From NCBI GenBank assembly GCA_000227505.4, contig AGIF02000001.1, forward strand, positions 392,035 through 456,034: 64,000 nt of DNA, given 5' to 3'. Made by a program: the position numbers and the translations under genes. This document shows, in pieces, positions 10,690-28,037 of this stretch. Position 1 is the first letter of the stretch; the number at the start of each line of letters is the position of its first letter. Below the pieces are notes generated by a model, which was given only the letters and a program-made list of their open reading frames with translations, did no database searches and had not been told where the DNA came from. The DNA is from a gamma proteobacterium HIMB55 (GTDB taxonomy: Bacteria > Pseudomonadota > Gammaproteobacteria > Pseudomonadales > Halieaceae).

Positions 10690-10714
10690 GGCTTCTCCCA
10701 CTCCGGTGATTTCT

Positions 10715-10869: not shown

Positions 10870-12486
10870 GTGAATAAATACGACGCCATCGTTATCGGGG
10901 CGGGTCACAACGGATTGACCAATGCGGCCTATCTCGCTAAGGCGGGGCTCAAAGTCGCCGTGCTGGAGCGCAACCCCCACATTGGCGGCGCGACCGTCAG
11001 CCGTGAGCTCTACGAGGGTTGGTATTACTCCAACTGCTCCTACGTTTCGAGCCTGCTGCGCCCGGAGATTACTCGGGATCTTGAATTGCCTCGTCACGGC
11101 CTACAGGTGGTGCCCTTTGGGGGTGGCGCGACGTTTATGCAAAACGGCGATCACTTCGGTAACTACAGCGACTATGCACGCAAGTACCGAGAGATTTCGC
11201 GGCATTCGCGGCGCGACGCTAATGCTTACGAGCGCTACAAGGCCGATACCAGTCGCCAGACACGTCTTATTCGGCCGTTCTTATTGAAGACGCCACCAGA
11301 CCCTACCTCGCTCAAGCTTCGAGACCTCAAGGACCTCGTGGACTTTGCGAAGCCCTTTATCAACATGGGTGAGGAGGGGCTGCTCGATACGATCAAGTTC
11401 TGGACGACCTCGGTGGGCGACTATCTCAACGAGTATTTCGAAAGCGATGTTATCAAGGCGCAGCACGCGGGCAGCGGCATCATCGGTACAGCTTTGGGTG
11501 TCTACTCACCCGGAACAGCCTACGTTTTGCTGCACCATTACATGGGTGATGTTGACGGCAATGTCGGTGCTTGGGGCTTTGCGCGCGGTGGTATGGGTGC
11601 CATCGCCAACGCACTGTCAAAGTCGCTTCAGTCCTTCGGCGGTGAGATTATTTGCGACGCGAACGTCGATCGCATCATCGTAAAAGGGGGCCGCGCAAAA
11701 GGCGTAGCCCTCAAAAACGGCGATGAATATCACGCGGACATTGTGGTCTCCAACCTCGACCCTAAGCGGACCTTGCTCGATATCACGGACGCGGGTGATC
11801 TACCCGAAGACGTTGTTCAGAAGGCGAAGAACTTTAAAATTCGTGGATCTTCGGGAAAGCTCAATATTGCTCTGGATGGACTGCCAGTTTTCAACGGTTT
11901 GGATCCCAAGAATCCCTTGATGGCCGGTGACCTTCACTTCAGTGATTCGCTCGAGCGCATGGAGCGTGCCTACGATGATTGGAAGGCAGGTACGTGGTCG
12001 AAAGATCCCTATCTCGACATGATGATCCCGTCGTTGACGGATCCGACCATGGCACCTCCCGGCAAACACATGATGTCAGTCTTTGTTCAGTACGCACCGC
12101 CCAAAGTTGAGGGCCGAGAGTGGACCGATGAAGACAAGGACGGATTTGAGAAATCGGTTATCGATCAGATTTCAAAATACAGCCCCAATTTCCGCGATCT
12201 GATTCTCCACTGCGAGACGCGCACACCGCGCGAGATCGAAGCGGAGGTAGGCCTGACTGAAGGTAATATTTTCCAGGGCGAACTGACCTTCGATCAGCTC
12301 CTGTTTAACCGCCCCTTCCCGGGTTATGCGCAATACCGAATGCCGATTAAGGGCATGTATATGTGTAGCTCAGGTACTCACCCAGGCGGCGGTGTTATGG
12401 CGGCCCCCGGTGCAAACGCGGCGCGCGAGATTCTTTACGATCTAAAACGACCCAATACCGTCCCAGGGAGCTACGCCGATGACTAA
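10870..12486 (+). CDS. FAD-dependent oxidoreductase, phytoene dehydrogenase/PYROXD2-like
   Basis: A 538-residue flavoprotein with an N-terminal dinucleotide-binding fold (YDAIVIGAGHNGLTNAAYLA, then Glu at the end of beta-2 in VLERNPHIGG) and the C-terminal FAD motif seen as SSGTHPGGGVMAAPGANAA. It belongs to the phytoene desaturase-like amine/carotenoid oxidoreductase group, but no carotenoid gene is near. It starts the four-gene operon with a paralogous flavoprotein, a GcvT-like protein and a Rieske oxygenase, which points to oxidation of an N-methyl compound rather than a carotenoid (inference). The GTG start has a GGAG box upstream. Its stop overlaps the next gene by eight bases. Confidence 0.88.
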   Translation: MNKYDAIVIGAGHNGLTNAAYLAKAGLKVAVLERNPHIGGATVSRELYEGWYYSNCSYVSSLLRPEITRDLELPRHGLQVVPFGGGATFMQNGDHFGNYSDYARKYREISRHSRRDANAYERYKADTSRQTRLIRPFLLKTPPDPTSLKLRDLKDLVDFAKPFINMGEEGLLDTIKFWTTSVGDYLNEYFESDVIKAQHAGSGIIGTALGVYSPGTAYVLLHHYMGDVDGNVGAWGFARGGMGAIANALSKSLQSFGGEIICDANVDRIIVKGGRAKGVALKNGDEYHADIVVSNLDPKRTLLDITDAGDLPEDVVQKAKNFKIRGSSGKLNIALDGLPVFNGLDPKNPLMAGDLHFSDSLERMERAYDDWKAGTWSKDPYLDMMIPSLTDPTMAPPGKHMMSVFVQYAPPKVEGREWTDEDKDGFEKSVIDQISKYSPNFRDLILHCETRTPREIEAEVGLTEGNIFQGELTFDQLLFNRPFPGYAQYRMPIKGMYMCSSGTHPGGGVMAAPGANAAREILYDLKRPNTVPGSYADD

Positions 12487-14065
12487 GTACGATGCCATCG
12501 TGATCGGCGCGGGTCACAACGGATTGATCACCTCGAATTACCTCGCCAAAGCGGGCAAAAAAGTCTTGGTAGTCGATGCGCGACACCAGCCTGGTGGCTG
12601 CGCAAGCACCAAGGATTTTGCTAACGGTTTTCAACTCTCTGATTGCGCGCAATGGGTGCACCAGTTCGACGAGAAAATCATAAAAGACCTCAGCCTCGAG
12701 CAGCACGGTTTTGTTCTGGGGGAGAGCAAGCGGACGGTTGCCCTGCAAGCCGGTGGTGACCACTTAACGATCGATGGCGACAGCCTCAGCGGTGCAGGCA
12801 TTAGTGCGTCCGATCAGAAGGCCTTCAAGGCGTTCAGCTCACAAATGCGGGCCTTCGCCAAGTTGATGCTCAAGCTCTATCGAACCCGCGCACCGAAAAT
12901 GGTTGAGGCGAACTGGGCTGATCGCATGACACTCCTGTCTCTAGGCTTGGGCCTTAAGATGATGGGTCGCAGGAACATGCAGGACATGATGCGGCTCGTC
13001 TTGATCAATATCTATGACGTGATGAACGAGCACTTCGATCACGACGGACTTAAGGCCGCGATAGCGCTCGATGCCATCACCGGCACCAACATGGGACCGC
13101 GCTCACCTAATACTGTTTTCACCTATATCCACCGCATGGTGGGAGAAGCGTTGGGTAATCGAGGCGTCAGTCAGGTGATGGGCGGCATGGGTCGGTTAGG
13201 CGATGCACTGCTGAGCTCTGCTCAGGCGCAGGGAGTTGAAGTGCGACTCGGCGAGACCGTCAGTCGCATTGTTAAAACCGATGATCGTGTTACCGGTATC
13301 GAATTGAGCTCAGGCGACGTCCTTGAAGCTTCAGCTGTCGTGTCGAGTGCTGACCCCAAGACGACCTACCGTGACTTGTTAGGGTACAGACATATTGAAG
13401 CCGGACAGGCGCGCCGCGTAGAGCAATATCGTACGCGCTCGGGTACGGGCAAATTACACCTTGCCTTGTCAGGACTCCCGTCGTTCTCTGGTGTGAGCGC
13501 CGAGGATCACAGCCAGCGTCTGATCATTGCACCGTCGATGGATGCGATGGAGACGGGACTGAACCCCATTAAGTACAAAGAGCTGACCTCGCAGCACGTG
13601 TTCGATATCAGCATTCCAAGCATCGAAGACCCTGCGATCGCGCCAGCCGGGCAGCACATGCTGACGGCTCTCGTGCACTATGTGCCTTATGAGCTTAAGA
13701 CGGGCTGGGACGGTAACGATAGCAACGGTGGTGCTGAAAGCGCTCGTGATCAGTTACTCGAGTCACTGCTTCAACAACTTGAGACCTACGCCCCGGGTAT
13801 TCGCGATCTCATCATTGCGAGCGAAGTTGTGGTGCCCGAGGACTTTGAGGTGTCACACGGCATGACTGGTGGTAATTGGCACCATGGTGAGCTGTCCATT
13901 GACCAAGCCTTGATGATGCGCCCTTTCCCGGGATCGACTCAGTACACCGGAAGTGTTGAAGGGCTTTACCTTTGTGGTGCTGGATCGCATCCGGGAGGAA
14001 GCCTCATGGGTCTTGCGGGGAAAAACGCCGCTGAAGAAATACTCAAGCAGGGGGTCTTGTCATGA
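12479..14065 (+). CDS. FAD-dependent oxidoreductase, paralogue of the preceding gene
   Basis: A 528-residue protein with the same domain order as its upstream neighbour: the N-terminal stretch KYDAIVIGAGHNGL is shared with it, and the C-terminal FAD segment reads GAGSHPGGSLMGLAGKNAAEE. The pair looks like an old tandem duplication and may form a heterodimer. Translation is coupled on both sides: it overlaps the previous gene by eight bases and the next by four (ATGA). No pathway-specific residue could be identified, so the substrate is unknown; a methylated amine is suggested by the GcvT-like and Rieske genes in the same operon. Confidence 0.87.
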   Translation: MTKYDAIVIGAGHNGLITSNYLAKAGKKVLVVDARHQPGGCASTKDFANGFQLSDCAQWVHQFDEKIIKDLSLEQHGFVLGESKRTVALQAGGDHLTIDGDSLSGAGISASDQKAFKAFSSQMRAFAKLMLKLYRTRAPKMVEANWADRMTLLSLGLGLKMMGRRNMQDMMRLVLINIYDVMNEHFDHDGLKAAIALDAITGTNMGPRSPNTVFTYIHRMVGEALGNRGVSQVMGGMGRLGDALLSSAQAQGVEVRLGETVSRIVKTDDRVTGIELSSGDVLEASAVVSSADPKTTYRDLLGYRHIEAGQARRVEQYRTRSGTGKLHLALSGLPSFSGVSAEDHSQRLIIAPSMDAMETGLNPIKYKELTSQHVFDISIPSIEDPAIAPAGQHMLTALVHYVPYELKTGWDGNDSNGGAESARDQLLESLLQQLETYAPGIRDLIIASEVVVPEDFEVSHGMTGGNWHHGELSIDQALMMRPFPGSTQYTGSVEGLYLCGAGSHPGGSLMGLAGKNAAEEILKQGVLS

Positions 14066-15246
14066 GCGCTGCAGAACGCAAGACAATGTTACTGACAACA
14101 CCGTTTCACTCACGAGTAGAGCAATACTGCGAGCTAAACGATTGGGGTGCTTGGCAGGGCTACACCACGCCGAACTCCTACTTCGATGTGGAGCTCGAGT
14201 ACTTCGCGATTCGCAGCACAGCCGGCGTACTCGACCTCTCCCCCATGAATAAGTACCGCATCTCGGGGCCTGATGCCGAAGCCTTCCTTAACCGATTGGT
14301 CACGCGTGATGTCAGCAAGATTGGTGTTGATCGAGTTGGATACACCGTCTGGTGTAATGATGCGGGCGAGCTAATGGACGATGGAACCATTTTCCACCTC
14401 GCTGAGAACGATTACCGGCTCTGTTCCTACATGAGGGCAGACGAATGGCTTGAGTGGAATGCGCTCGGTTTCGACGTCAGCATCACTAACGAGTCTGATG
14501 ACATCGCTGCTCTTGCTGTTCAAGGCCCTGTGTCGTGCACGATCTTGACCTTGATTGGCTGCGAGGGCTTGAACGAGCTCAAGCCGTTTGGCATCGCGCG
14601 GTTTGATTTCGAAGGCGTCGAGATGATGGTAAGCCGTACCGGCTTTACCGGTGATTTGGGTTACGAAGTTTGGATTGATCCGAGCAAAGCCGAAGCACTC
14701 TGGGATGCGCTCTTTGAGAAAGGCCGAGACTACTTAATTAAACCGATCGGCTCGCACGCGCTCCACATGGCGAGGATCGAGGCGGGCTTCTTGCAGGCCA
14801 AGGTTGACTTTGTACCGGCCGAAATTGCCGTCCGTCCGGGACGCACGCGAACACCGCTCGAGATGGGCTTGGACTGGCAGGTCGATTTTAATAAGCCGCT
14901 GTTCAACGGGCGCGCCGCGCTGCTCAAGCAAAAAGAAGAAGGACTGCGATATCGGTTTGTGTTGCTCGATGTTGAAGGTAATAAGCCCGCGGAGCATTCG
15001 TTCATTCTGAAGAACGGTAAGCAGGTGGGTATTGTGACCTCGGCCGCGTGGTGTCCGACCGCGAAGTCGAACCTGGCCTTTGCGCAGGTGGAGATGCCGC
15101 ACGGTGAGGTGGGTGATGAGTTTGTTGCTGAGATCTATTATCAGCGCGAGCTGCAGTGGACACGACTTATGGCGCCCTGCAAGGTAATTGACGGTCCGCT
15201 GTTAAACCCACAACGTAAACGCCAAATACCGGCACCTGCGCACTAG
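14062..15246 (+). CDS. GcvT-like aminomethyltransferase family protein
   Basis: A 394-residue member of the glycine cleavage T-protein/dimethylglycine oxidase C-terminal family, which binds tetrahydrofolate and accepts a one-carbon unit from a methylated amine. Recognisable elements are the N-terminal YFAIRSTAGVLDLSPMNKYRISG segment, the QGPVS motif, SRTGFTGDLGYEVW and the C-terminal barrel. It is not the glycine-cleavage GcvT itself, since no gcvH or gcvP is present. Its place between two flavoproteins and a Rieske oxygenase fits capture of formaldehyde-level carbon released by N-demethylation. The start overlaps the preceding stop as ATGA. Confidence 0.86.
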   Translation: MSAAERKTMLLTTPFHSRVEQYCELNDWGAWQGYTTPNSYFDVELEYFAIRSTAGVLDLSPMNKYRISGPDAEAFLNRLVTRDVSKIGVDRVGYTVWCNDAGELMDDGTIFHLAENDYRLCSYMRADEWLEWNALGFDVSITNESDDIAALAVQGPVSCTILTLIGCEGLNELKPFGIARFDFEGVEMMVSRTGFTGDLGYEVWIDPSKAEALWDALFEKGRDYLIKPIGSHALHMARIEAGFLQAKVDFVPAEIAVRPGRTRTPLEMGLDWQVDFNKPLFNGRAALLKQKEEGLRYRFVLLDVEGNKPAEHSFILKNGKQVGIVTSAAWCPTAKSNLAFAQVEMPHGEVGDEFVAEIYYQRELQWTRLMAPCKVIDGPLLNPQRKRQIPAPAH

Positions 15247-15250
15247 GCTT

Positions 15251-16513
15251 ATGCATCTCATTGCGACACAAGTTGATGACTCTCTCGAGCGAATGCGCGA
15301 GAAGCTCGCGGCCGAGCGCGAGCGTCCTCAACACGCCATGGATGCTTATTTTTATCGCTCGCACTTGGTCTACGAGCGAGAGCTCGACCATCTTGTGTTT
15401 AAAAGTTGGTTGTATGCGCTGCACAGCAGTGAAATCCCGGCAAAGGGCGATTATCAGCTGGTAGAGATTGGTGAAGACTCGATCATTGTCGTCCGCGGTG
15501 ATGACGGCGAGATTCGGGCGATGCACAACATTTGCCGTCACCGCGGCGCGCAGGTCTGCGAAGCTGCAGCAGGGAACAAGCGCACCTTTGTCTGCCCTTA
15601 TCACGGTTGGGTTTACAACCTCGACGGCAGTCTTAAAGCGGCGCGTGAAACCCACGTCATTTCAGACTTCGATACGGCTGCACACGGGCTAAAACCTGTC
15701 CGCTGTGTCGAGTACATGGGCCTCGTGTTTATCAATTGCGATCCTAATGCCGCTGACTTCCTTGGCCCGCTTGAAAATATCCGTGAGCCCTTGGGCGCTT
15801 ACGATTTGGCTAACGCCAAGGTCGCCCATCGTCAGACGTATAAGATCGATGCGAATTGGAAGCTCGTACTTGAGAACTATCTGGAGTGCTATCACTGCGC
15901 CACCTCGCATCGCGCTTACGCCAAGCTACATACCTTTAAAGATCTACACGAAAAAGTAGCGCCAATTGTCGAGGCCTTGCTTGAGCGTTCCGACGCGGTG
16001 ACGGGTGTGCCCGGCATGTCCAAGCAATACACCAAGATCTATCAGGAAGCTGAGGGGTTTGGTGCCTGCGTCCACACGATGCGTTACGGTCTCTTTGAGG
16101 GTAATGTCACCGGGAGCAAAGACGGCCAACCCGTGGCGCCGCTCATGGGTAACATCAAAGATTATGACGGTGGCGCCGGTGACTATCAGATGGGTCCGCT
16201 GACGTTCATGCTGAACTACCCGGATCACTGTGTTCTGTATCGATTCCTGCCACGATCACTCACCGAGACGGATGTTGAACTTGTCTGGTTCGTCCGTGGC
16301 GATGCGGAAGAGGGCAAAGACTACGAACGCGAAGATGTGGTCTGGCTCTGGGATCACACCACGCAGGAGGACGAGTACATCATCCTTCGCAATAACGCGG
16401 GTGTTAACTCACGATTCTTTGAGCCCGGTCCCTACCACCCAGAATTCGAAGCGACGCTTCAGAAGTTTGTTGGCTGGTATCTAAACAACCTCGAGAAGGT
16501 CAGTCACGCCTGA
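15251..16513 (+). CDS. Rieske non-haem iron oxygenase, alpha subunit (quaternary-amine type)
   Basis: A 420-residue protein with an N-terminal Rieske [2Fe-2S] site (CRHRGAQVC ... CPYHGW) and a C-terminal mononuclear iron domain whose first ligands lie in ENYLECYHCATSH. The residue linking the two centres is Glu rather than the Asp of classical aromatic-ring dioxygenases; Glu is found in the group that includes glycine betaine monooxygenase GbcA and carnitine monooxygenase CntA. This supports a trimethylammonium or other methylated-amine substrate, though aromatic acids are not excluded. No reductase component is encoded nearby, so electrons must come from a distant gene or from the neighbouring flavoproteins. 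It ends the operon. Confidence 0.88.
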   Translation: MHLIATQVDDSLERMREKLAAERERPQHAMDAYFYRSHLVYERELDHLVFKSWLYALHSSEIPAKGDYQLVEIGEDSIIVVRGDDGEIRAMHNICRHRGAQVCEAAAGNKRTFVCPYHGWVYNLDGSLKAARETHVISDFDTAAHGLKPVRCVEYMGLVFINCDPNAADFLGPLENIREPLGAYDLANAKVAHRQTYKIDANWKLVLENYLECYHCATSHRAYAKLHTFKDLHEKVAPIVEALLERSDAVTGVPGMSKQYTKIYQEAEGFGACVHTMRYGLFEGNVTGSKDGQPVAPLMGNIKDYDGGAGDYQMGPLTFMLNYPDHCVLYRFLPRSLTETDVELVWFVRGDAEEGKDYEREDVVWLWDHTTQEDEYIILRNNAGVNSRFFEPGPYHPEFEATLQKFVGWYLNNLEKVSHA

Positions 16514-16523
16514 TTTCTAGCTT

Positions 16524-16558
16524 AATCGGTGTCCCGATTGGACCTCTGATTCAGAGGT
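16524..16558. other. Two small hairpins between convergent genes
   Basis: AATCGG/CCGATT (16524-16539) and ACCTCTGA/TCAGAGGT (16542-16558) form two adjacent hairpins in the gap between the convergent Rieske and TauD-type genes. They may end transcription from either side, though T runs are poor. Confidence 0.4.
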
Positions 16559-16619
16559 AGGTACTCGGATAGACAGCCCGTAACTGAGGCCCAGCTCCAG
16601 TAAAAGAGCCAGATCTCAG

Positions 16620-17441
16620 TCAGGCAGCGCGACTGTCGGAGTTGACCGTTACACGATTCATGCACCGATAGTCAGGCAGATAATCGGCAAGTGCGTAGTG
16701 CTGAGTGACGCGGTTATCCCAGATAGCCACTGAATTGTCTCTCCAGCGGAATCGCACCTGGTGCTCGGGCTGATCGATGTGCGAGTAGAGGTAGTCGAGT
16801 AGACGATCGCTCTCAGCTTTGAGCATGCCCACCATGTGCTGAGTGAACGAGCGATTCACGTTGATGTATTTCTCGCCGGTCACTGGGTGGGTTCCGATCA
16901 CGGGATGTACCCAGGCACCGTTACTGTGAACGCCGTCGTTCATCGCCTGAATGTTGGACTCTCTACCGAGGTAATCGTTTCTGAAGCAGCCGATATCGTG
17001 AACCGCCTCAAGGGTTTCAAGCATGTCGCGCATGTGCGAGGGGAGGTTGTCATAGGCCAGTGCCATATTGGCCCACAGCGTGTCACCGCCGGTCGCAGGT
17101 ACTTTCTTCGCATACAGAATCGACATGAATGGGGGCGACTCCCGGAATGTTAGGTCTTTGTGCCAGTCATTGGTGTCGGGCGGACGTTTGGCATCGTTCT
17201 CGAGCACTGTAATAGCCGGAATTTCAGGGTGGTTCTGATAAACGGGGTGTGGGACATCAATTTCACCAAAATGCTTCGCCAGCTCGATATGCTGCGCTGG
17301 CGTCATTTGTTGATCTCTGAAAAAGACCACCTGGTGTGCCATGAGTGCGTCGTAGACGGCCTGTGCACCGTCGGCTGTGATGTTGCCTAGATCAATGTCG
17401 ATTTCAGCGCCCAAGGCTGGAGTGAGACGTTCAATCTTCAC
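16620..17441 (-). CDS. TauD/TfdA family 2-oxoglutarate- and Fe(II)-dependent dioxygenase
   Basis: A 273-residue protein of the taurine dioxygenase family. The iron ligands are visible as the HKD triad in NDWHKDLTF (His94, Asp96) and the distal His248 in QHYALADY, with Arg259 positioned to hold 2-oxoglutarate. The family oxidises small sulfonates, herbicides, quaternary amines and others, so the substrate cannot be read from sequence. GTG 17441 is chosen because GGGGA lies eight bases upstream and the protein then begins VKIERLTPALGAEI as family members do; an ATG 13 codons earlier (17480) is the alternative. It lies between the Rieske operon and transporter genes and may act in the same amine pathway. 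Confidence 0.88.
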   Translation of the reverse strand: MKIERLTPALGAEIDIDLGNITADGAQAVYDALMAHQVVFFRDQQMTPAQHIELAKHFGEIDVPHPVYQNHPEIPAITVLENDAKRPPDTNDWHKDLTFRESPPFMSILYAKKVPATGGDTLWANMALAYDNLPSHMRDMLETLEAVHDIGCFRNDYLGRESNIQAMNDGVHSNGAWVHPVIGTHPVTGEKYINVNRSFTQHMVGMLKAESDRLLDYLYSHIDQPEHQVRFRWRDNSVAIWDNRVTQHYALADYLPDYRCMNRVTVNSDSRAA

Positions 17442-17602
17442 GTTTATTTCCCCGCTGTATGACCGATGATCATTCGCCATCGGTCTATTGTTTTATGGGC
17501 GTTACGGTCTTGCCGCACGCCGGACGAGAATAGACCCGAGGACTAGGGTCGCGCAATCAAAATGCTAGGTTACCGGCTGGGAAATTGTTGGCAAAAAAGT
17601 TG

Positions 17603-18892
17603 TTAAGTTGTCTGCGGCTGGAAGGGTCGGTCGACACGAATGAATAGCCATAGTGCGGCGCCAATGAAGGCGACAATACTGCCGGTGCTCAGTGCGGCGA
17701 CCCAGCCTACTTTTAGGGCAAGGAAGGGCATAAGGGGACCGACGATAATGCCCGAGACGCTGCCTCCGGTATTCATGAGTCCACAGGCAGGCGCGGTGTA
17801 GGGACCTGCAAGATGTATTTGCGCCGACCAGAAGGAACCCTCCGCGAATTGCGTGCAGGCATAGCAGAGCGAGAGTAGGGCAACCGCGACGTAGGGCGAT
17901 GACGCATAAAGACCCAGATAAAGGAAGATGCCGGTACCGATCAAGCCGGTCATGGCAGGAATGCGACAGCCTAATTTGGGACCCAGCTTTAGACACAAGG
18001 TGTCACAAACCCACCCACCAACGGTTGCTGCTACTGCCCCCAAAACCCAGGGCGCTGCAGCGAGCATGCCCGACTCAATAATGCTGAAGCCGAGGACGTT
18101 CACGAGGTAGTGAAAGAACCAGGTCGCGAAGGAATAGAAGACAAAGTTATGCGTGAAATAGGCCGATGCGAGCAGCAAGGTTTCTCGGTGACCCAATAAT
18201 TGCTTCCAGGCACCGTAGCCGGCGTCCTGCGTAAGGCCTGAGCGATTAGCTTCGATCGCTTCAAGTTCCGCCTCCGACATGGCCGGATGCTCTCTGGGGT
18301 TATCGCGCGCGTACCACCACCAGATCGAAAAGAATAAAAGTCCGACAGGCACAAATACCAAAAACGAGGCGCGCCAGCCGTAGTTGAGAATCACAATGGA
18401 AAAGATGGGGGCTGCCGCCGCTGCGCCAAGCGATAGGCCGGTGCTCGAGACGGCATTGGGTAGGGCCCATTGACCCACAGGGAACCAGCGCTCAACCGAG
18501 GCGGCTTGAACTGGGTAGATCGGTGCGTGTGCTGCGCCCATGACCACGCGAATCGAGATCAGTAGGCCTACAGTACCTGCAACCGATGCTTCAAAAACTC
18601 CGGGTAGCAGTGCGAAGAGTAGGCAGGCGAGCACCCAAATAGCACCGGCCACTAGAAGCGTCAGCCTGGGACCGAAGCGCTTACCAAGAATGCCTCCCGG
18701 GATTTGGAAAACGAGATAGCCCCAGAAAAATGCACCGTAAACCCAGCCCATCTGAAGTTCGCTGATGGCTAGCTCTTTCATCATGAACTCGCCGGCGACC
18801 GGGAAGTGCTGACGGAGCATGTAAGACAAAAAACTCAGGATGAAGATGACGGAAAAAAAGCGCCACCGAACGGGAATTGTTGAAGTGCTCAT
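17603..18892 (-). CDS. MFS transporter, anion:cation symporter (ACS)-like
   Basis: A 429-residue inner-membrane protein with about twelve hydrophobic helices. The N-terminal half carries YGAFFWGYLVFQIPGGILGKRFGPR, typical of the ACS branch of the major facilitator superfamily, whose members take up organic acids and related anions. The ATG at 18892 is preferred over a GTG three codons earlier. It lies on the minus strand with a second MFS gene and the TauD-type dioxygenase and may import the substrate of the surrounding catabolic genes; specificity is not readable. Confidence 0.88.
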   Translation of the reverse strand: MSTSTIPVRWRFFSVIFILSFLSYMLRQHFPVAGEFMMKELAISELQMGWVYGAFFWGYLVFQIPGGILGKRFGPRLTLLVAGAIWVLACLLFALLPGVFEASVAGTVGLLISIRVVMGAAHAPIYPVQAASVERWFPVGQWALPNAVSSTGLSLGAAAAAPIFSIVILNYGWRASFLVFVPVGLLFFSIWWWYARDNPREHPAMSEAELEAIEANRSGLTQDAGYGAWKQLLGHRETLLLASAYFTHNFVFYSFATWFFHYLVNVLGFSIIESGMLAAAPWVLGAVAATVGGWVCDTLCLKLGPKLGCRIPAMTGLIGTGIFLYLGLYASSPYVAVALLSLCYACTQFAEGSFWSAQIHLAGPYTAPACGLMNTGGSVSGIIVGPLMPFLALKVGWVAALSTGSIVAFIGAALWLFIRVDRPFQPQTT

Positions 18893-19109
18893 TAAATGCA
18901 CTCGCTACTGCCACCAGAGGCATCAGCATAAGTGCCTTTACAGGAAAAGATCCAGCGAAAAACAAGAGCGCGAGTGCGGGTATCACGGGACGGCTGCGCA
19001 GCAAATAAAATAGCCGCGCAGCAAAAAATAGAGACGGAACAGCGAGAGAGAAGAGATTGCTCATGGACGGAAGGGCCGCAGTCGATGCTGCGGCACTCCC
19101 GATCATTCG

Positions 19110-20617: not shown

Positions 20618-22183
20618 CTAGTTGGCGTCGCTTGCAATGGATCGAATCATCGACTGCCAGAAGATCAAAGACTCGGGAATGCTGGCCCGTCTAACACGCT
20701 CGTTGAGGCCGTGTGCAAAGCTGTCTTTTGGGTTGAGGAAGATGCCCGTCAGACTGTAGCTCGGTATGCCGGCGGCTCTAAAATACGCACCATCGGTGGT
20801 GCCCGAAATCATGCGCGGAATAACGGGTGTCCCGGGATAAAGTTGCGCTAACGAAGCTTCGACGGCGTTCATGACTTCATCGTTGAAGGGCGAAGTGTCA
20901 CTCGAGACTGGCTTGCCGTAAACCGCCCATTCAAGCTCGGGATTACCGGCGACCAGCGATAGCTCACCCATAATGTCCGCGACGCTATTTCCGGGAAAGA
21001 TTCGGCAGTTGATGGTGGCCGTGGCGGTTCGAGGTAGTGCGTTCTCTGCGTGTCCGCCGCTGAGCATTGTTGGAATGCAGGTGGTCCCAAGAGTGCCGAT
21101 ATATTCGGGTTGAGCACGTAAGACCTCGATCGCTTCTTCGTCCTTGGGGTTTGCGGCAAAGCGTCGCATTGCTTCACCGACCTCGTTGTCGAGGAAGGGC
21201 GCGGAGCGCTCGAAGTAGGTGCGCGTGATCTCGTTGGTCTCGATAGCGAAGCGGTGATTTTCGATGCGCTGGATGGCTGCCGCGAGATCGAAAATCGCGT
21301 TATCAGCCCGGGGCATCGAGCTATGGCCACCGATGTTTCTAGCGGTCATTGTGTAGGTGGCATAGGTCTTCTCAGCAAAGCCAACCATATATTGAATGGC
21401 TTCATCGCTATTGTTCAGCGCTCCACCACCGCCATCAACGACAATCGCGTACTCAGCGTCGATTAGGTTACGGTGGTTGTTGGTGAGGTCCTGCACCGTG
21501 TTTTGCAGAGACTCTTCATCACCCGTGAAGGCAATAATCAGATCGCGATTCGGTACAAAACCCTGCGCTTTGAGCCATACAAACATTGTGGTGAGCATCG
21601 AGACATCGAACTTGTTATCGAGCACGCCACGGCCGTAGTAGAAGGTCTCGTCTTGCTGAAGCTCGAAGGGGTTGCGCACCCACTCACCGGCCTCTGCGGG
21701 GACCACATCCATATGAGAGGAGAACACCACAGGCTTTCGGTTGCTCGTACCGTCGCCGCGATAACGCACAATCAGAGACACAGTTTCGTCTAGGGGCAGC
21801 GTGTGAATGTCTTTTGGGTCAAAGCCACCCTCGATAAAAACGCCTTTCAGGTATTCAGCGTAAGCGGGCACATTGCCGTCACCGTAGGCAGTGACGCGTG
21901 CTGTCGCATCCGATAAAAGCGATTCAGCGAAGCGGCTATACGTTGCGATTTCACTAGCGTCGATACCTGATGTTTTCATACCCAGCGTGACCGCTTTGCT
22001 GGGCGCAATGCCCTTAACGCCATCTGAATTCGCGTCCTTTGATGACAATTCAGCGACACCGGTTTCAACTGTTGAATCTGCAAGCGCGAGACTGCTGCCC
22101 ACCCCTAATGCTGCCGCAAAGAAGGCAGTCAAAACGACACTGATAGTGGATTTGGTAAGTCGTTGGTTCGGGTTCGATTCCAT
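20618..22183 (-). CDS. Secreted M20 family metallopeptidase/deacylase
   Basis: A 521-residue hydrolase with an N-terminal signal peptide (cleavage probably after SSLALA). The M20 zinc-site elements are visible: SSHMDVVPA with the first His and catalytic Asp, GRGVLDNK with the bridging Asp, FTGDEES with the catalytic Glu, and a late HGLNERV with the last His. The lid/dimerisation domain lies between. M20 enzymes remove N-acyl or peptide groups from amino acids and dipeptides; a periplasmic form would feed free amines or amino acids to transporters. It is transcribed away from the gamma-butyrobetaine dioxygenase gene across a 468-base divergent gap. Confidence 0.9.
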   Translation of the reverse strand: MESNPNQRLTKSTISVVLTAFFAAALGVGSSLALADSTVETGVAELSSKDANSDGVKGIAPSKAVTLGMKTSGIDASEIATYSRFAESLLSDATARVTAYGDGNVPAYAEYLKGVFIEGGFDPKDIHTLPLDETVSLIVRYRGDGTSNRKPVVFSSHMDVVPAEAGEWVRNPFELQQDETFYYGRGVLDNKFDVSMLTTMFVWLKAQGFVPNRDLIIAFTGDEESLQNTVQDLTNNHRNLIDAEYAIVVDGGGGALNNSDEAIQYMVGFAEKTYATYTMTARNIGGHSSMPRADNAIFDLAAAIQRIENHRFAIETNEITRTYFERSAPFLDNEVGEAMRRFAANPKDEEAIEVLRAQPEYIGTLGTTCIPTMLSGGHAENALPRTATATINCRIFPGNSVADIMGELSLVAGNPELEWAVYGKPVSSDTSPFNDEVMNAVEASLAQLYPGTPVIPRMISGTTDGAYFRAAGIPSYSLTGIFLNPKDSFAHGLNERVRRASIPESLIFWQSMIRSIASDAN

Positions 22184-22651: not shown

Positions 22652-23869
22652 ATGAACACTCCGATCTCAGAGGCAATAGCGCCCGACTTTTATCACTATG
22701 ACTCACGCCCCATCGCATCGGCTGCGACCGAAGGGGAGTTTGTCCATATCCGCTGGCCCGATGATGCAAAGTTAGCCTGTCACCGTTTTTGGCTAAAAGA
22801 GAATGCGGTTGGTCAAGGCGGCATCGATCTTGCGACGCGCGAGTGCATTCTCGATCCCGCAGACCTTACGGACGATATCGAAGTGAAATCCGCGGTCGTG
22901 GATAACGCCGGCGATTTGATCGTTGAGTGGGGGCATGACGGGCAGCGATCGGTTTATCACTCGGGTTGGTTACGCCACGTTGCGGAAAACAACCACCGCC
23001 CCAACAGCTGGTTACCAGAGGCTCAGTCGTGGACAACAGGCTCGATTGGTGAAGTGCCTCGCGTTGACGGTTCGGCTGCGCTAAAGAGCGACGAAGCGAT
23101 TCTTGCACTGCTCAATAATCTGATGGTCTACGGAGCTTGTGTTTTAGAGAACTCGCCAACTTATGAAGGCTATCTGCTTGAGCTTGCTGACCGCATTGGT
23201 CCGGTTCGCGACAGTAACTTTGGCCGTATTTGGGATGTGCGTGCTGATATCAATTTGGCTGGAGACGCTGCAACCAATACGACAGCGAATACAGGGCTGC
23301 GTTTAGGGCCACACTCCGACCTGCCGACACGTGAAGTACCGCCGGGTTATCAGTTCTTACACTGCTTAATTAATGATGCCGACGGCGGCGAGTCGACGCT
23401 GACCGATGGCGCGGCCTTGGTTGAAGCGCTTGAGCGCGACTATCCGGAAGAATTTGAGCTGCTTTACACACGACATTGGATTTTCTTTAACCGTGGACCC
23501 GGCATTGATCACCGGTGGTCTGCACCGATCATCGATTACCTACCGGGCTCTGATACGCCGACAATAAGAGCGTTCTATCCCGTGCGCGCGTTCCCGGCGA
23601 TGGCGAACGAGGATGTGGGTCGTTGTTATGACGCACTCCGCTTATTCCACAAAATGGCCGATCAGCCTGAGTTCGAACTGAAGTTCCGCCTGACTGCCGG
23701 TGACATCATGTGCTTCGATAATCGCCGTGTACTCCATGGGCGCGATGCGTTTACAGGTTCAGGTAAGCGACACTTACAAGGTATTTACATCGACCGCGAT
23801 GAAATCATGTCGCGTGGACGTGCACTCAACCGCGCTGCGGCTAGTGTTGTGGGAAGTAATGCGTCGTAA
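22652..23869 (+). CDS. Gamma-butyrobetaine dioxygenase-like 2-oxoglutarate oxygenase
   Basis: A 405-residue protein in the gamma-butyrobetaine hydroxylase branch of the TauD superfamily, expected to convert gamma-butyrobetaine to L-carnitine with Fe(II), O2 and 2-oxoglutarate. Iron ligands are His221-x-Asp223 in GPHSDLPTRE and His362 in RRVLHGRDAF; the aromatic-rich FFNRGPG region lies between. The N-terminal DUF971-like domain is present (FVHIRWPDDAKLACHRFWLKEN) but lacks the Cys cluster that binds zinc in the human enzyme. ATG 22652 has an AGGAGG box nine bases upstream and gives the normal length; the frame is open further upstream without homology. BKACE and carnitine dehydrogenase genes follow, which strongly supports the assignment. 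Confidence 0.87.
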   Translation: MNTPISEAIAPDFYHYDSRPIASAATEGEFVHIRWPDDAKLACHRFWLKENAVGQGGIDLATRECILDPADLTDDIEVKSAVVDNAGDLIVEWGHDGQRSVYHSGWLRHVAENNHRPNSWLPEAQSWTTGSIGEVPRVDGSAALKSDEAILALLNNLMVYGACVLENSPTYEGYLLELADRIGPVRDSNFGRIWDVRADINLAGDAATNTTANTGLRLGPHSDLPTREVPPGYQFLHCLINDADGGESTLTDGAALVEALERDYPEEFELLYTRHWIFFNRGPGIDHRWSAPIIDYLPGSDTPTIRAFYPVRAFPAMANEDVGRCYDALRLFHKMADQPEFELKFRLTAGDIMCFDNRRVLHGRDAFTGSGKRHLQGIYIDRDEIMSRGRALNRAAASVVGSNAS

Positions 23870-23924
23870 CAGATAACGCGTGCGCTGATAGGCTGCACAA
23901 ACAATAAAAACAAGGGAGGTCGCT

Positions 23925-24836
23925 ATGCCATTGGCCATGCGCAAAAAAGTATTCATCACCGCAGCACTCACCGGCTCGGGCGGTACACAAGATCGAAGCG
24001 ATAAAGTGCCGCGCAGTCCCGAGCAGATTGCCAACGACGCCATCGAAGCCGCAAAGGCGGGTGCCGCCGTTGTCCACTGCCACGTGCGCGACCCGGAGAC
24101 CGGGGCACCCGCGCGCGATGTGCATCTATACAAAGAAGTGGTTGAGCGCATTCGTGCTTCTGAGACTGATGTGGTGGTAAATCTCACCGCGGGTATGGGT
24201 GGCGACTTGGTCTTTGGTCCGCCCGATGCACCCTTACCTCTGCAAGACGCAGGCACTGACATGGTGTCGGCGGCCGAGCGCGTTGCGCACCTCGAAGTTT
24301 GTCGCCCCGAGATCGCGACTTTGGACTGCGGCACCATGAACTTTGCCGAAGCCGACTATGTGATGACGAATACACCTGGGATGCTCCGGGATATGGCGCA
24401 GCGCATGACCGATCTTGGTATTCAGATCGAGATTGAAGCGTTTGATACCGGACACCTTTGGTTTGCCAAGCAGTTGGTCGAAGAGGGCGCTATTAAAGAC
24501 CCTGTGATGGTCCAGCTTTGCATGGGCATCCCCTGGGGTGCGCCCGACGATATGAATACCTTTATGGCTATGGTCAACAACGTGCCGAGTAACTGGGTGC
24601 ACTCTGCGTTCAGCATCGGTAAGAACCAGATGCCTTTCGTTGCCGCTGCGGTTCTTTCGGGGGGTAACGTGCGCGTGGGTTTGGAAGATAACCTCTGGCT
24701 CGAGCGAGGACGCTTAGCGTCTAACGCAGAGCTGGTTGAGAAGGCTGCAGGCATTATCACGGCGATGGGCGTGGAGATCATGACGCCTGCCGAGGTCCGT
24801 GCTGAACTTAATCTTGTGAAGCGAGACCCGGTCTAA
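23925..24836 (+). CDS. BKACE (DUF849) beta-keto acid cleavage enzyme, predicted 3-dehydrocarnitine-specific
   Basis: A 303-residue TIM-barrel enzyme of the beta-keto acid cleavage family, related to 3-keto-5-aminohexanoate cleavage enzyme Kce. The zinc motif HCHVRDP (His51, His53) and the GGNVRVGLEDNL segment are present. Family members condense a beta-keto acid with acetyl-CoA and release acetoacetate plus a new CoA thioester. Because carnitine 3-dehydrogenase starts at the last base of this gene, the substrate is most likely 3-dehydrocarnitine, giving betainyl-CoA and acetoacetate; this specificity is inferred from context and known carnitine clusters. A GGGAGG box precedes the ATG. Confidence 0.92.
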   Translation: MPLAMRKKVFITAALTGSGGTQDRSDKVPRSPEQIANDAIEAAKAGAAVVHCHVRDPETGAPARDVHLYKEVVERIRASETDVVVNLTAGMGGDLVFGPPDAPLPLQDAGTDMVSAAERVAHLEVCRPEIATLDCGTMNFAEADYVMTNTPGMLRDMAQRMTDLGIQIEIEAFDTGHLWFAKQLVEEGAIKDPVMVQLCMGIPWGAPDDMNTFMAMVNNVPSNWVHSAFSIGKNQMPFVAAAVLSGGNVRVGLEDNLWLERGRLASNAELVEKAAGIITAMGVEIMTPAEVRAELNLVKRDPV

Positions 24837-25822
24837 TGGCAACTACGCGAAAGACAGCCGCCATTATTGGTGGTGGCGTCATTGGCTCAGGCTGGGCGAC
24901 ACGGTTTTTATTAAACGGCTGGGACGTCCGGTTCTTTGACCCGAGTGAAGACGCGGAGCGGATACTACACGCGGTTATCGAGCGCGGACGCGAAGCTATG
25001 CCAGCGCTTTGTGATGTTGTCCCGGAAGAAGGAATGCTCACCATTGCGAGCTCAACGGCGGATGCAGTAGCCGGTGCGAGCTACATTCAGGAGTCGACGC
25101 CCGAGCGCATCGAAGTAAAGCGCGCGGTGTTGAAAACCATCCAAGCGGATTGCGACGCCGATGCCATTGTTGCCTCTTCAACCTCGGGCTTTATGCCCAG
25201 TGAGTTGCAAGAAGGCGCATTACGACCTGAGCAAATTATCGTTTCACACCCCTATAACCCGGTTTACCTGCTGCCGCTGGTTGAGGTCGTGGGCTCGGAC
25301 AAGGTGTCCAAGGATTTACTCGATCGTGCAAGCGGCTATTTAGAATCGGTATCGATGAAGCCTGTGGTGCTCGGAGCAGAAGTGCCGGCCCACGTAGGCG
25401 ATCGTCTCCTCGAGGCGCTCTGGCGCGAGGCGCTGTGGCTGGTAAAGGACGGCGTTGCGACAACAGGTCAGATCGACGACATCATTACGCACAGTTTTGG
25501 GCTGCGCTGGGCACAGAAAGGCTTATTTGAAACCTACCGTGTCGCCGGTGGCCAAGCGGGAATGAAACACTTTTTGGAGCAGTTTGGTCCCTGTCTCGAA
25601 TGGCCATGGACCAAGCTCATGGATGTGCCCGATCTGGACGAGGAGCTGATCGATCGTATTGTCGAGCAGTCCGATGAGCAGGCGGCCGGTCGAACTGTGA
25701 TGCAGCTCGAAAATGAGCGCGATCGGAACTTGGTGGCACTCTTAAAAGCCTTACGCGACGAAGACGCCGCAGCAGGCGCCTTCCTCAACGAGGTCAACCG
25801 ACGTCACCAGGGCGAGGGATGA
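24836..25822 (+). CDS. L-carnitine 3-dehydrogenase
   Basis: A 328-residue member of the 3-hydroxyacyl-CoA dehydrogenase superfamily. An N-terminal NAD site (IIGGGVIGSGWA) is followed by conserved HPYNPVYLLPLVEVVG and a C-terminal part with RLLEALWREALWLVKDGVAT and GLRWAQKGLFETYR, sequences characteristic of bacterial carnitine dehydrogenases (EC 1.1.1.108) rather than fatty-acid enzymes. It oxidises carnitine to 3-dehydrocarnitine, the substrate of the BKACE enzyme encoded just before it. The start overlaps that stop by one base (TAATG). Some homologues carry a fused or adjacent betainyl-CoA thioesterase; none is evident here. Confidence 0.93.
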   Translation: MATTRKTAAIIGGGVIGSGWATRFLLNGWDVRFFDPSEDAERILHAVIERGREAMPALCDVVPEEGMLTIASSTADAVAGASYIQESTPERIEVKRAVLKTIQADCDADAIVASSTSGFMPSELQEGALRPEQIIVSHPYNPVYLLPLVEVVGSDKVSKDLLDRASGYLESVSMKPVVLGAEVPAHVGDRLLEALWREALWLVKDGVATTGQIDDIITHSFGLRWAQKGLFETYRVAGGQAGMKHFLEQFGPCLEWPWTKLMDVPDLDEELIDRIVEQSDEQAAGRTVMQLENERDRNLVALLKALRDEDAAAGAFLNEVNRRHQGEG

Positions 25823-25982
25823 GTCAGGCGTCGGGTAACCACAAAAGCACCAATCTACTCTCGTGCTTAAAAGCTGGAGTAAACGCGCGAGCGTTGGGCG
25901 AGAGAGGTCACCACGCGCTTGAACGAGAGCTGTGGACGATACATCCGGGCAAGAGCGCGAATAATCAGACCAGAAAGGGCGC

Positions 25983-28037
25983 ATGGCTCGTCAGGATGCA
26001 GAGGGCCGTGGCGTGACTGAACGCTCAGCACCCCTGTGGCGACCAACCGCGGAGCGAGTCGCACAAGCTGAGCTCACAAAATTCAGTGAGTTTGTCGCCG
26101 AACGATCTCCTGAGATTGATGCATCCACCTACGAAGCGCTACACCAGTGGTCGATAACGAGCACTACTGACTTTTGGCGATGTATTTGGGATTACTCTGA
26201 TGTCATCGCGAGTCATGAGAGCGACGAAGTCGTTTGTGACTTAGACAAAATGCCTGGCGCCTCGTGGTTTCCCGATGCGCGGCTAAACTTTGCCGAAAAC
26301 CTGCTTCGTCGGCGTGGTGATCAAACCGCGATTATTTCGCTGCTAGAAAACGGTGCGCGGACTGAGACTTCGTTTGATGACCTCTATCAGCAGGTTGCCG
26401 CCATAGCGGCTGCTCTGAGAGCGCGGGGTGTTGCGCCTGGAGATCGCGTCGCAGGGTTTATGCCGAACGTGACCGAGACGGTGGTGGCCATGCTGGCGGC
26501 AACCAGTTTGGGGGCTGTGTGGACATCGTGCTCGCCTGACTTTGGTTTTCAGGGAGTGATGGATCGCTTTGGTCAGGTCAAGCCCAAGGTTTTGTTCGCG
26601 GCTAATGGTTACTACTACAACGGCCGCGCGCACGACTCGCTCGATAAAGTGCGCCAGATCGCTGAAGAGATCGAGAGCCTCGAGCAGGTTGTTATCGTCG
26701 AGATCATTGAGCAGGCGCCTGATTCTGCGGACAGCGGTGGTGTAGCGAGCCATCTAACGGGTCATATAGAGGGACATATAGACGCTCATATAAGCAACGC
26801 AGTCCTGTTTTCGGACTGGCAGCGTGAGCACGCGGACGTCACGGAAATCGCGTTTGAGCAACTGCCTTTCGATCATCCGCTTTACATCATGTACTCGTCG
26901 GGCACGACAGGCGTACCGAAGTGCATTGTGCACGGCGCCGGCGGCACGCTGATTCAGCATCTAAAAGAGCACAGGCTCCATTGTGATATTGGACCCGAGG
27001 ATACGCTGTTCTACTTCACGACCTGCGGTTGGATGATGTGGAACTGGTTGGTATCCGGGTTGGCCAGCGGTGCAACACTCGTTCTATATGACGGCTCACC
27101 GTTTGCGGACGAGGGTAGGGTGCTGCTCGATGCGATCGACCGAGAGCGGATTACGGTCTTTGGCACCAGCGCCAAGTTCATTTCTGGCATCGAAAAAGCT
27201 GGCCTAAAGCCACGCGAGTCGCACGATCTCTCAAGCCTCAAAAGTATTTTGTCGACCGGCTCACCGCTGTCGCATGAGAGCTTTGAATACGTATACCGTG
27301 ATTTCAAAGCCGATGTGCTGCTGGCTTCGATTGCGGGCGGTACCGACATCATTTCTTGCTTTGTTGGCGGTTGCCCAACGCGCCCTGTTTACACGGGCCA
27401 AATCCAATGCCGAGCGCTGGGTATGGCGGTCGAGTTCTGGGATGAGGCCGGTGCACCACTTCAGAATGGTAAAGGCGAGTTGGTCTGTAAGACGGCCTTC
27501 CCGAGTATGCCGATCGGCTTTTGGAATGACGACGATGGCGGCAAATACCATCGTGCCTATTTTGCGCAGTTCGATAACGTCTGGTGTCACGGCGATTACG
27601 GTGAAATGACAGCCGAGGATGGCGCCATTATCCATGGACGATCTGACGCCGTGCTAAATCCAGGCGGTGTACGCATTGGCACCGCAGAGATTTATCGGCA
27701 AGTCGAGAAGCTCGACGCCATCATCGAGAGTATTGTGATTGGGCAGGACTGGGAGGATGACGTGCGCGTTGTTCTGTTTGTCGTGCTTAGAGACGGTGAG
27801 GTGCTCGACGACGAGCTCGCTCAGTCAGTACGCACTACCATTCGCCAGAATGCGACGCCGCGTCATGTGCCTACCAAAATTATCCAGGTGGCAGAAATCC
27901 CGCGGACGCTAAGTGGCAAGATTGTGGAGCTCGCAGTGAGAGAAGTGGTCCACGGGCGTCCGGTTAATAATGTGGATGCGCTTGCCAACCCTGAGGCGCT
28001 TGAGCACTTTGAGGACCTCGCGGAGTTGAAACGCTAA
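25983..28037 (+). CDS. Acetoacetyl-CoA synthetase
   Basis: A 684-residue ANL-superfamily acyl-CoA ligase with the AMP-binding motif YIMYSSGTTGVPKCIVHG and the acetoacetyl-CoA synthetase hallmarks GGTLIQHLKEH and TTCGWMMWNWLV. It activates acetoacetate to acetoacetyl-CoA, which fits re-use of the acetoacetate released by the BKACE enzyme 1.1 kb upstream. The N-terminal segment SAPLWRPTAERV is family-typical. ATG 25983 (AAGGG box) and GTG 26013 (AGAGGG box) are both possible starts. A short in-frame triplication (GHIEGHIDAHI) lies in a loop near residue 262. The 160-base gap to the preceding gene holds only a doubtful 65-codon frame. Confidence 0.94.
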   Translation: MARQDAEGRGVTERSAPLWRPTAERVAQAELTKFSEFVAERSPEIDASTYEALHQWSITSTTDFWRCIWDYSDVIASHESDEVVCDLDKMPGASWFPDARLNFAENLLRRRGDQTAIISLLENGARTETSFDDLYQQVAAIAAALRARGVAPGDRVAGFMPNVTETVVAMLAATSLGAVWTSCSPDFGFQGVMDRFGQVKPKVLFAANGYYYNGRAHDSLDKVRQIAEEIESLEQVVIVEIIEQAPDSADSGGVASHLTGHIEGHIDAHISNAVLFSDWQREHADVTEIAFEQLPFDHPLYIMYSSGTTGVPKCIVHGAGGTLIQHLKEHRLHCDIGPEDTLFYFTTCGWMMWNWLVSGLASGATLVLYDGSPFADEGRVLLDAIDRERITVFGTSAKFISGIEKAGLKPRESHDLSSLKSILSTGSPLSHESFEYVYRDFKADVLLASIAGGTDIISCFVGGCPTRPVYTGQIQCRALGMAVEFWDEAGAPLQNGKGELVCKTAFPSMPIGFWNDDDGGKYHRAYFAQFDNVWCHGDYGEMTAEDGAIIHGRSDAVLNPGGVRIGTAEIYRQVEKLDAIIESIVIGQDWEDDVRVVLFVVLRDGEVLDDELAQSVRTTIRQNATPRHVPTKIIQVAEIPRTLSGKIVELAVREVVHGRPVNNVDALANPEALEHFEDLAELKR
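26762..26797 (+). repeat. Three in-frame 12-bp repeats within the acetoacetyl-CoA synthetase gene
   Basis: CATATA recurs at 26762, 26774 and 26786 in a 12-base register, encoding His-Ile each time. The repeats are AT-rich compared with the flanking sequence and lie in a predicted surface loop. Confidence 0.7.

Follow-up and report, generated by a model that had tools for sequence, protein, structure and literature searches.

A carnitine operon adjoining a probable folate-linked N-demethylation module in the gammaproteobacterium HIMB55

Gene organisation of the locus

The window, a stretch of 64,000 nucleotides, belongs to a genome that groups with the Halieaceae (Luminiphilus/HTCC2080). Two blocks of genes on the forward strand lie on either side of four genes on the reverse strand. 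The left block (10870–16513) starts with FP1 (10870–12486), a CrtI/CrtO-like FAD flavoprotein with a monoamine oxidase (MAO)-type fold, as judged by profile matches, alignment, an AlphaFold model and Foldseek. It is overlapped by FP2 (12479–14065), a second CrtI-like flavoprotein recognised by its frame and profile matches, and followed by a stand-alone GcvT-like folate protein (14062–15246; profile matches, PDB comparison and an Asp-Asp-Gly motif) and a Rieske oxygenase of the quaternary-amine type with the motif ENYLECYHCATSH (15251–16513; profile matches and structure-sequence comparison). The right block (22652–28037) comprises a GBBH/TmpA-like 2OG dioxygenase (22652–23869; profile match and alignment), a BKACE (23925–24836; profile match and identity to BKACEs beside carnitine 3-dehydrogenases, CDH), a single-domain CDH-like protein (24836–25822; profile match) and an acetoacetate-CoA ligase (25983–28037).

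The reverse-strand genes encode a TauD-family 2OG dioxygenase (16620–17480) and two MFS transporters (17603–18901 and 19110–20417), all assigned by profile matches, and an M20 hydrolase (20618–22183; frame and profile match). The hydrolase, absent from the gene list of the first-pass annotation, has a signal-like N-terminus when read by eye, and in relatives its gene is often divergent from the dioxygenase gene. The TauD-family protein scores 295.7 bits, below the taurine dioxygenase cut-off of 313. Taurine betaine, a substrate prompted by this neighbour, was set aside; several relatives in the genus carry a PhyH-type dioxygenase near the Rieske gene in its place.

All genes named in the first-pass annotation are open frames at the positions given, and profile scores place them in the superfamilies given. 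The finer names held less well, since the GBBH-like, CDH-like and Rieske proteins all fall below curated cut-offs. The acetoacetate-CoA ligase exceeds its equivalog cut-off (928 versus 520.9 bits).

The right block as a carnitine operon

With its BKACE, CDH-like protein, acetoacetate-CoA ligase and GBBH-like dioxygenase, the right block represents a known kind of carnitine operon, and the carnitine route proposed earlier for it is supported. A trimethylammonium acid, most likely gamma-butyrobetaine, would be hydroxylated to carnitine, which would in turn be oxidised to 3-dehydrocarnitine; the BKACE would cleave the latter with acetyl-CoA to give betainyl-CoA and acetoacetate, and the ligase would activate the acetoacetate.

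The GBBH-like dioxygenase scores 262.9 bits and does not reach the curated cut-off of TIGR02409 (414.75). Its listed frame, starting at 22442, is over-long compared with full-length orthologues (mostly 401–431 residues, one of 481), so the ATG at 22652 is the likely start. The HxD...H iron triad is kept in all 17 aligned sequences, window included, and the four aromatic-cage places, located by what we take to be the residue numbers of human GBBH, hold Phe, Trp, Asn and Tyr in all 17. The Asn at one of these places, like the low model scores of the GBBH-like and CDH-like proteins, is a point against the proposed route. The BKACE scores 332 bits with PF05853 (cut-off 24.8). It was compared with two of the 246 plasmid records that carry a BKACE relative, and it is about 71% identical to the BKACEs beside annotated carnitine 3-dehydrogenases in Paracoccus seriniphilus and Leisingera caerulea. 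The Leisingera locus also has an acetoacetate ligase and a BCCT transporter. The top models for the CDH-like protein are carnitine dehydrogenases, with both scores below cut-off (485 of 592 and 322 of 414 bits), and the thioesterase half is missing from its single domain. A betainyl-CoA thioesterase was found neither as a gene nor as a fused domain within the right block, and the four 4HBT_2 proteins elsewhere in the genome match the thioesterase half that two relatives carry fused to CDH at no better than chance level (E 0.62).

BKACE and carnitine dehydrogenase are common to the window and to the known carnitine catabolic operons (P. aeruginosa caiX-cdhCAB-hocS; Leisingera AACS-BKACE-CDH-BCCT), and the acetoacetate ligase is shared with Leisingera. 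Compared with these operons, the window adds the GBBH-like dioxygenase, has a dehydrogenase without the thioesterase half, and includes neither a substrate-binding protein nor an AraC-type regulator in the block. In one relative from the genus, and by clustering in several more, the right block has a BCCT carrier, a GDPD and a GMC oxidoreductase of the choline-dehydrogenase type nearby. A genomic island of Arctic SAR11 likewise joins a gamma-butyrobetaine dioxygenase (BBOX), CDH and BKACE, and it shares with that relative a choline dehydrogenase and a glycerophosphodiester phosphodiesterase; unlike the window, it includes an acyl-CoA thioesterase as well as ABC transport, and no left block is named in the passages on it (PMC12421898). 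The 'new arrangement' claimed in the first-pass annotation is therefore limited to the joining of the two blocks, for which it is possible, because the dioxygenase-CDH-BKACE linkage was already published for Arctic SAR11 (PMC12421898).

The left block and its probable function

Upstream of the left block, a hairpin with a trailing T run, together with a GGAG six bases before the GTG, could be read by eye, so the block probably starts as its own unit. FP1 is the most conserved of the left-block genes compared (alignment A2, 25 sequences). Its AlphaFold model has a pLDDT of 86, and Foldseek matches it to carotene desaturases first and then to monoamine, nicotine and putrescine oxidases. The GcvT-like protein scores 195 bits with PF01571 (GCV_T). 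Its nearest PDB relative is the C-terminal half of trimethylamine N-oxide (TMAO) demethylase, and it also resembles dimethylglycine dehydrogenase; it matches only positions 383–760 of the 763 in the TMAO demethylase profile, the N-terminal catalytic domain being absent. The GcvT-type folate domain is thus common to all three, whereas in the window it stands alone beside separate flavoproteins. The Asp of its Asp-Asp-Gly motif, which we take to be the folate site, is present in 22 of 22 aligned sequences, window included.

Among NCBIfam models, GbcA (NF058607) fits the Rieske oxygenase best, but the score of 292 bits does not reach the curated cut-off of 670. Since no protein in the genome passes this model, the Rieske enzyme is the genome's nearest GbcA candidate. 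Three relatives at 40–44% identity score 256–286 of 670, likewise below the cut-off. At the position of CntA residue 203, the pi-cation place, the window enzyme has Tyr where the betaine and stachydrine demethylases of group Vb carry Asn, and its relatives have Tyr in 76 of 77 cases and Phe in one. Over its full length, the enzyme is nearer to 3n0q (252 bits) and Stc2 (234 bits) than to CntA, which it matches with 146.9 bits over residues 30–225 only, half the length. No partner reductase of the GbcB kind is encoded in the block, and a single query, a presumably GbcB-like reductase from beside a Rieske gene in Phaeobacter, found no close one in the genome (best 43.8 bits). The GbcAB route, with the oxidation of dimethylglycine and sarcosine, has a Rieske oxygenase and a folate-linked flavoenzyme logic in common with the left block as read here, but the window enzyme fails the GbcA model and the window flavoproteins are of the CrtI/MAO type.

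Judged by its sequences, the left block is probably a folate-linked N-demethylation module, and its methylated-amine substrate is probably not glycine betaine. The Rieske enzyme would take a methyl off a quaternary ammonium group, the two MAO-fold flavoproteins would oxidise the remaining N-methyls to iminium, and the GcvT-like protein may catch the one-carbon unit on tetrahydrofolate. The names that its genes match or were deposited with include phytoene desaturase, aminomethyltransferase and aromatic ring-hydroxylating dioxygenase. Among open-licence PMC papers, we found neither a description of the module nor a paper joining its gene types. The homarine operon, considered as its possible identity, was dropped; no paper on homarine genes was found in the same literature.

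The left block forms a module of its own; it is widespread in marine Gammaproteobacteria, and its first three genes (FP1, FP2 and GcvT) also occur in Alphaproteobacteria. Named genomes hold at least 584 confirmed relatives of the Rieske gene, and neighbourhoods of up to 10 kb on each side were fetched for the best 80. Among these 80 loci, many of them shortened by contig ends, at least two FP genes with GcvT and Rieske genes occur in 50, a BetI-type regulator in 34 and a PurU-type gene in 9. Polyamine-type families number two or more in 25 loci, and GBBH, BKACE or CDH genes are present in 3, which contig matches assign to the window genus. In SAR92 and Porticoccaceae, the left-block genes share a single run with a gamma-glutamylpolyamine-synthetase-like gene, a GATase, a class III aminotransferase and an agmatinase; Pot-type transporters accompany FP1-FP2-GcvT in Rhizobiaceae and Rhodobacterales. 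Several of these labels are weak: at locus L140 the synthetase scores 210 of 650, the GATase 155 of 250 and a DAO protein 168 of 600 as pipecolate oxidase, and a PotF-like protein in HTCC2148 reaches 329 of 636 bits. Plasmid records were covered in part, with 3 of 419 examined for the Rieske relative, 6 of 30 for FP1 (including 4 of the 7 that exceed 60% identity) and 1 more of 26 found with the Shinella FP1 paralogue as query.

Relationship between the two blocks

The first-pass annotation had proposed a search for conserved linkage in other genomes, and such linkage was found. It is real within the genus and rare elsewhere. Rieske hits in 55 genomes were reduced to 52 by dropping G025 (split hit), G067 (35%) and G083 (41%), and CDH hits in 35 to 28 by dropping G028, G049, G054 and G059 (45–53% identity) and the fragments in G109, G116 and G119; 26 genomes had both. 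In 8 of the 26, window included, the blocks lie less than 20 kb apart on one contig, in G045 the distance from Rieske to CDH is 126,869 bp, and in 17 the genes are on different contigs, so that linkage there is not decided by this count. The arrangement is kept in relatives whose CDH is 66–90% identical, with BCCT, GDPD and choline-dehydrogenase-type genes around. Beyond the genus, G440, from another family, has BKACE-CDH about 10 kb from FP1-FP2-GcvT by tblastn, which was used for GC-rich relatives because longest-frame gene calls are unreliable there, and Shinella sumterensis has a related operon with the run CDH-FP-GcvT-BKACE. G060 keeps the right block with the left absent there (no Rieske hit at E 1e-60 in a Rieske-only search). 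G035 keeps it with a Rieske stub adjoining and has another left block on another contig, so G060 alone shows the right block without the left; the position of the Rieske gene in G035 was set without regard to its other, partial hit. Of 398 genomes drawn from the phylum and searched with the Shinella paralogue as FP1-like query (three candidates scored per genome), 54 had an FP1-like gene, 64 a BKACE and 14 both; the two genes lie within 20 kb in two of the 14, and the window genome is one of these two. By tblastn, 20 of the 54 genomes, each examined over a stretch, gave FP1, FP2 and GcvT at 38% identity or more in 4 and no such trio in the other 16.

We consider it fairly probable that these are two adjoining but separable modules, a carnitine route and a folate-linked N-demethylation unit. 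Both belong to one methylated-amine neighbourhood in this genus, and neither seems to need the other. The first-pass annotation had instead read the left block as demethylating the glycine betaine formed by the right block; this would run via dimethylglycine and sarcosine to glycine and make the 17 kb one pathway. The linkage in 8 of 26 genomes, in G440 and in Shinella argues for some joint role, and GbcA is the best model for the Rieske enzyme. This hand-over is nevertheless not supported, and we regard it as improbable, given the low GbcA score, the Tyr in place of Asn, the right blocks of G060 and G035 with no full left block beside them, and the carnitine genes near 3 of the best 80 Rieske loci against polyamine-type families near 25. 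The genome also encodes, outside the window, a corrinoid-activase-like gene, a SoxA sarcosine oxidase and, at 1.92 Mb, a locus resembling MtgBCD, a cobalamin-type glycine betaine demethylase (PMC12478193). With such a locus, the left block would be unnecessary for betaine.

It is very unlikely that the left block competes with the right by taking gamma-butyrobetaine or carnitine as its own direct substrate. CntA is reported to take both compounds (PMC7948474), the aromatic residue at position 203 is a feature shared with it, and the carnitine operon adjoins; the match to CntA is nevertheless confined to half the length, and the scarcity of carnitine genes near the best 80 Rieske loci again speaks against it. 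Inherited synteny without shared function appears about as improbable as the betaine hand-over. The 127 kb between the blocks in G045, the two relatives with no left block beside the right and the phylum draw, with close pairs in two of 14 genomes, all favour it, but the arrangement has been kept, with its surrounding amine genes, in relatives whose CDH is 66–90% identical.

Within the two-module reading, the substrate of the left block is perhaps a methylated polyamine. We tentatively suggest, as a possibility we hold rather doubtful, that FP1-FP2-GcvT-Rieske constitutes a folate-coupled demethylase system, so far undescribed, whose substrates are polyamines with N-methyl groups or related omega-amines. 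Candidate compounds are the N-methylated polyamines of diatom cell walls and compounds like trimethyl-lysine or trimethylputrescine. If this suggestion were right, trimethylated products of the left block in Luminiphilus could feed the adjoining carnitine operon.

The carnitine part of the locus holds nothing unusual. Among coastal bacteria the left module is widespread, and it probably passes the methyl carbon of dissolved organic nitrogen on to folate; naming its substrate would close a gap in marine methylated-amine cycling.

Layout of the region and the probable carnitine operon

Within one contig of 2.737 Mb, the window occupies positions 392035-456034, and its 17-kb region holds two same-strand blocks separated by a stretch on the opposite strand. 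By family profile matches, the left block (10870-16513, plus strand) encodes two CrtI/amine-oxidase-type flavoproteins (FP1 and FP2), a GcvT-like protein and a Rieske oxygenase, in genes that overlap or sit a few bases apart; upstream of FP1, reading by eye showed a hairpin, a T run and a GGAG that resembles a ribosome-binding site. The right block (22652-28037, plus strand) encodes a GBBH-like dioxygenase, a BKACE, a carnitine-dehydrogenase-like protein (CDH) and an acetoacetate-CoA ligase (AACS). Between them, on the minus strand, family profiles match a TauD-family dioxygenase, two MFS carriers and an M20 hydrolase; the last (20618-22183) has a signal-like N-terminus and is kept, pointing away from the GBBH-like gene, in many relatives within the genus (probably the Luminiphilus/HTCC2080 group). 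Further along, a MetH-like methionine synthase gene was observed in 34113-37796 (S-methyl_trans domain match, genome 426210-427130), and at 48000-64000 the G+C content drops from about 0.50-0.55 to 0.41-0.46 over densely packed plus-strand genes, possibly an acquired island.

The right block reads as an ordinary carnitine operon, modestly extended. Its BKACE is 71% identical to those adjoining annotated carnitine 3-dehydrogenases in Paracoccus seriniphilus and Leisingera caerulea, the latter with an acetoacetate-CoA ligase and a BCCT carrier in the same run. PMC5806209 describes conversion of carnitine to betaine in P. aeruginosa via the caiX-cdhCAB-hocS operon; PMC12482172 gives 3-dehydrocarnitine and betainyl-CoA as intermediates, with a dehydrogenase, BKACE and DhcAB, and ascribes betainyl-CoA hydrolysis to a Sinorhizobium dehydrogenase as a second activity. 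An Arctic SAR11 island, as outlined in PMC12421898, includes dioxygenase, dehydrogenase and BKACE together. The dioxygenase and CDH of the window both score below their curated cut-offs (263 against 414.75 bits and 485 against 592 bits). At one place of the putative aromatic cage of the dioxygenase, Asn is found in 17 of 17 aligned sequences, window included. No thioesterase gene lies among the right-block genes, and four 4HBT_2 proteins elsewhere in the genome match the CDH-fused thioesterase half of two relatives only at chance level (E 0.62).

Make-up and distribution of the left block

The left block is an uncharacterised module, probably for folate-linked N-demethylation. FP1 is its most conserved gene among those compared, and the predicted FP1 structure (pLDDT 86) best matches carotene desaturases, followed by monoamine, nicotine and putrescine oxidases. 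The closest PDB match of the GcvT-like protein is TMAO demethylase, followed by GcvT proteins and DMG dehydrogenase; the Asp of its presumed folate site is kept in 22 of 22 aligned sequences. PMC7948474 sorts the quaternary-amine Rieske enzymes by the residue at CntA position 203, which is aromatic in group Va (carnitine, choline, benzalkonium) and Asn in group Vb (glycine betaine, stachydrine). The window Rieske has Tyr at this position, as do 76 of 77 named relatives (Phe in the other), whereas Stc2 (3vca) and 3n0q have Asn. Two results count against a group Va-type reading from the Tyr: overall the enzyme scores higher with 3n0q (252 bits) and Stc2 (234 bits) than with CntA, where the match covers half the length at 147 bits, and its best NCBIfam model is GbcA.

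Named genomes whose Rieske protein is 89-95% identical are Halieaceae, and those at 73-74% include two labelled Luminiphilus, plus HTCC2080; these names suggest that the window genome belongs to the Luminiphilus/HTCC2080 group. In the family draw of 120 genomes, the Rieske gene was matched at E 1e-60 in 55 and CDH in 35. With gene families labelled from one representative each, the best 80 of at least 584 confirmed Rieske relatives in named genomes were compared. At least 50 of these loci hold two or more FP genes with GcvT and Rieske, at least 25 have genes of no fewer than two polyamine-type families, and at least three (L095, L097 and L122, in genomes G088, G103 and G118, all of the window genus) hold GBBH, BKACE or CDH; these are lower bounds, as flanks reached at most 10 kb and many loci end at contig ends. 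One same-strand run in a Porticoccaceae locus (L140) reads FP1-FP2-GcvT-acyl-CoA ligase-glutamine-synthetase-like-Rieske-DAO flavoprotein-GATase-class III aminotransferase-agmatinase. Its aminotransferase (633/618 bits against cut-off, a generically named model) and agmatinase (280/174) pass, its glutamine-synthetase-like protein falls below (best model gamma-glutamylputrescine synthetase, 210/650), and neither its GATase nor its DAO protein matches a polyamine-specific model. In HTCC2148, PotF-like (329/636) and ABC genes adjoin a regulator. Eight of the FP1-FP2-GcvT loci examined come from beyond the gammaproteobacterial set, L212/L217, L214, L215 and L216 from Alphaproteobacteria plasmids and L261, L262, L264 and L266 from genomes of other classes. 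By tblastn, six of the eight have at least two Pot-type genes, L261 has weak PotG matches only and L266 has no match. A Rieske gene close to the window's type (42%) accompanies them only in L212, beside a second Rieske type. In L214, L215, L216 and L262 the Rieske genes, one or two per locus, belong to other types, and L261, L264 and L266 gave no Rieske match.

The proposed betaine hand-over

The first-pass annotation had the left block demethylating betaine made by the right block. Such a hand-over is not supported: the Rieske enzyme falls below the GbcA cut-off, other demethylase-like genes are present, and two relatives keep the right block without the left beside it. The GbcA model's best score in the genome is that of the window Rieske (292/670), and no protein passes. 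Elsewhere lies an MTTB-family protein (765 bits), beside an MtgC-like corrinoid protein (201/370), a methyl-THF:corrinoid methyltransferase (370/259) and a corrinoid-activase-like protein (396/800), with an 862-aa protein of DMGDH-like build and a C-terminal GcvT domain nearby. PMC12478193 describes a betaine demethylase built of such parts (MTTB-family protein, corrinoid protein, methyltransferase, activase). In sequence terms, the stretch at about 1910700-1926800 (L201, L209), with MtgB/MtgC/MtgD-like and corrinoid-activase-like genes and a DMGDH-like gene near, is probably a cobalamin-dependent demethylase locus for betaine or another quaternary amine. Besides the window's, seven genes of the genome match GCV_T nearly completely and three in part; two have the length of SoxA, one of which was scanned and passes the SoxA model (1486/1164 bits). 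A further amine locus (about 2211600-2227700, L200), named by sequence look and partial matches, shows BHMT-like, class III aminotransferase-like, three enolase-superfamily-like, DMGDH-like, aldehyde-dehydrogenase-like and DAO-type genes and two further Rieske genes.

In two genomes the left block is missing at this site: G035 has about 30 bp in place of window 10758-16187, and G060 about 244 bp in place of 10683-16619. A Rieske C-terminal stub (L058 8070-8390) is left in G035 where FP1-FP2-GcvT are gone. GBBH-BKACE-CDH-AACS is kept in both, and therefore the right block can occur where this Rieske gene is absent. G035 carries another left block on another contig (Rieske 75% identical); G060 has no Rieske match at E 1e-60.

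Linkage of the two blocks

The expectation of conserved linkage was borne out within the genus. After split, low-identity and fragment Rieske or CDH rows were dropped, 26 genomes had both genes: on one contig 7.1-18.7 kb apart in eight (window included), at 126.9 kb in one, and on different contigs in 17, for which the count sets no distance. Two contig ends in G012 are consistent with adjacency. Six other genus loci (L074, L077, L078, L080, L086, L087) carry amino acid permease and PhyH clusters on the Rieske side (6/6 each) and an aminotransferase cluster in 2/6; the stretches fetched for them contain none of the right-block genes.

Outside the family, G440 has BKACE (73%) and CDH (56-57%) about 10 kb before FP1-FP2-GcvT, along with PotFGHI and two Rieske genes whose types differ from the window's. 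One run in Shinella sumterensis holds CDH (47%), FP (40%), GcvT (33%) and BKACE (62%); on its plasmid (L218, 5020-14155) the compact run consists of enoyl-CoA hydratase, CoA ligase, carnitine-dehydrogenase-like, CrtI-like flavoprotein, GcvT, class II aldolase and BKACE. Here the two kinds of gene are paired independently. Of the 398 genomes in the phylum draw, 14 combine an FP1-like gene with BKACE; compared by eye, the two lie within 20 kb in two of these, one being the window genome, so in one of 13 others. The linkage is a real trait of the genus that rarely recurs elsewhere, and the two blocks may have a joint physiological role.
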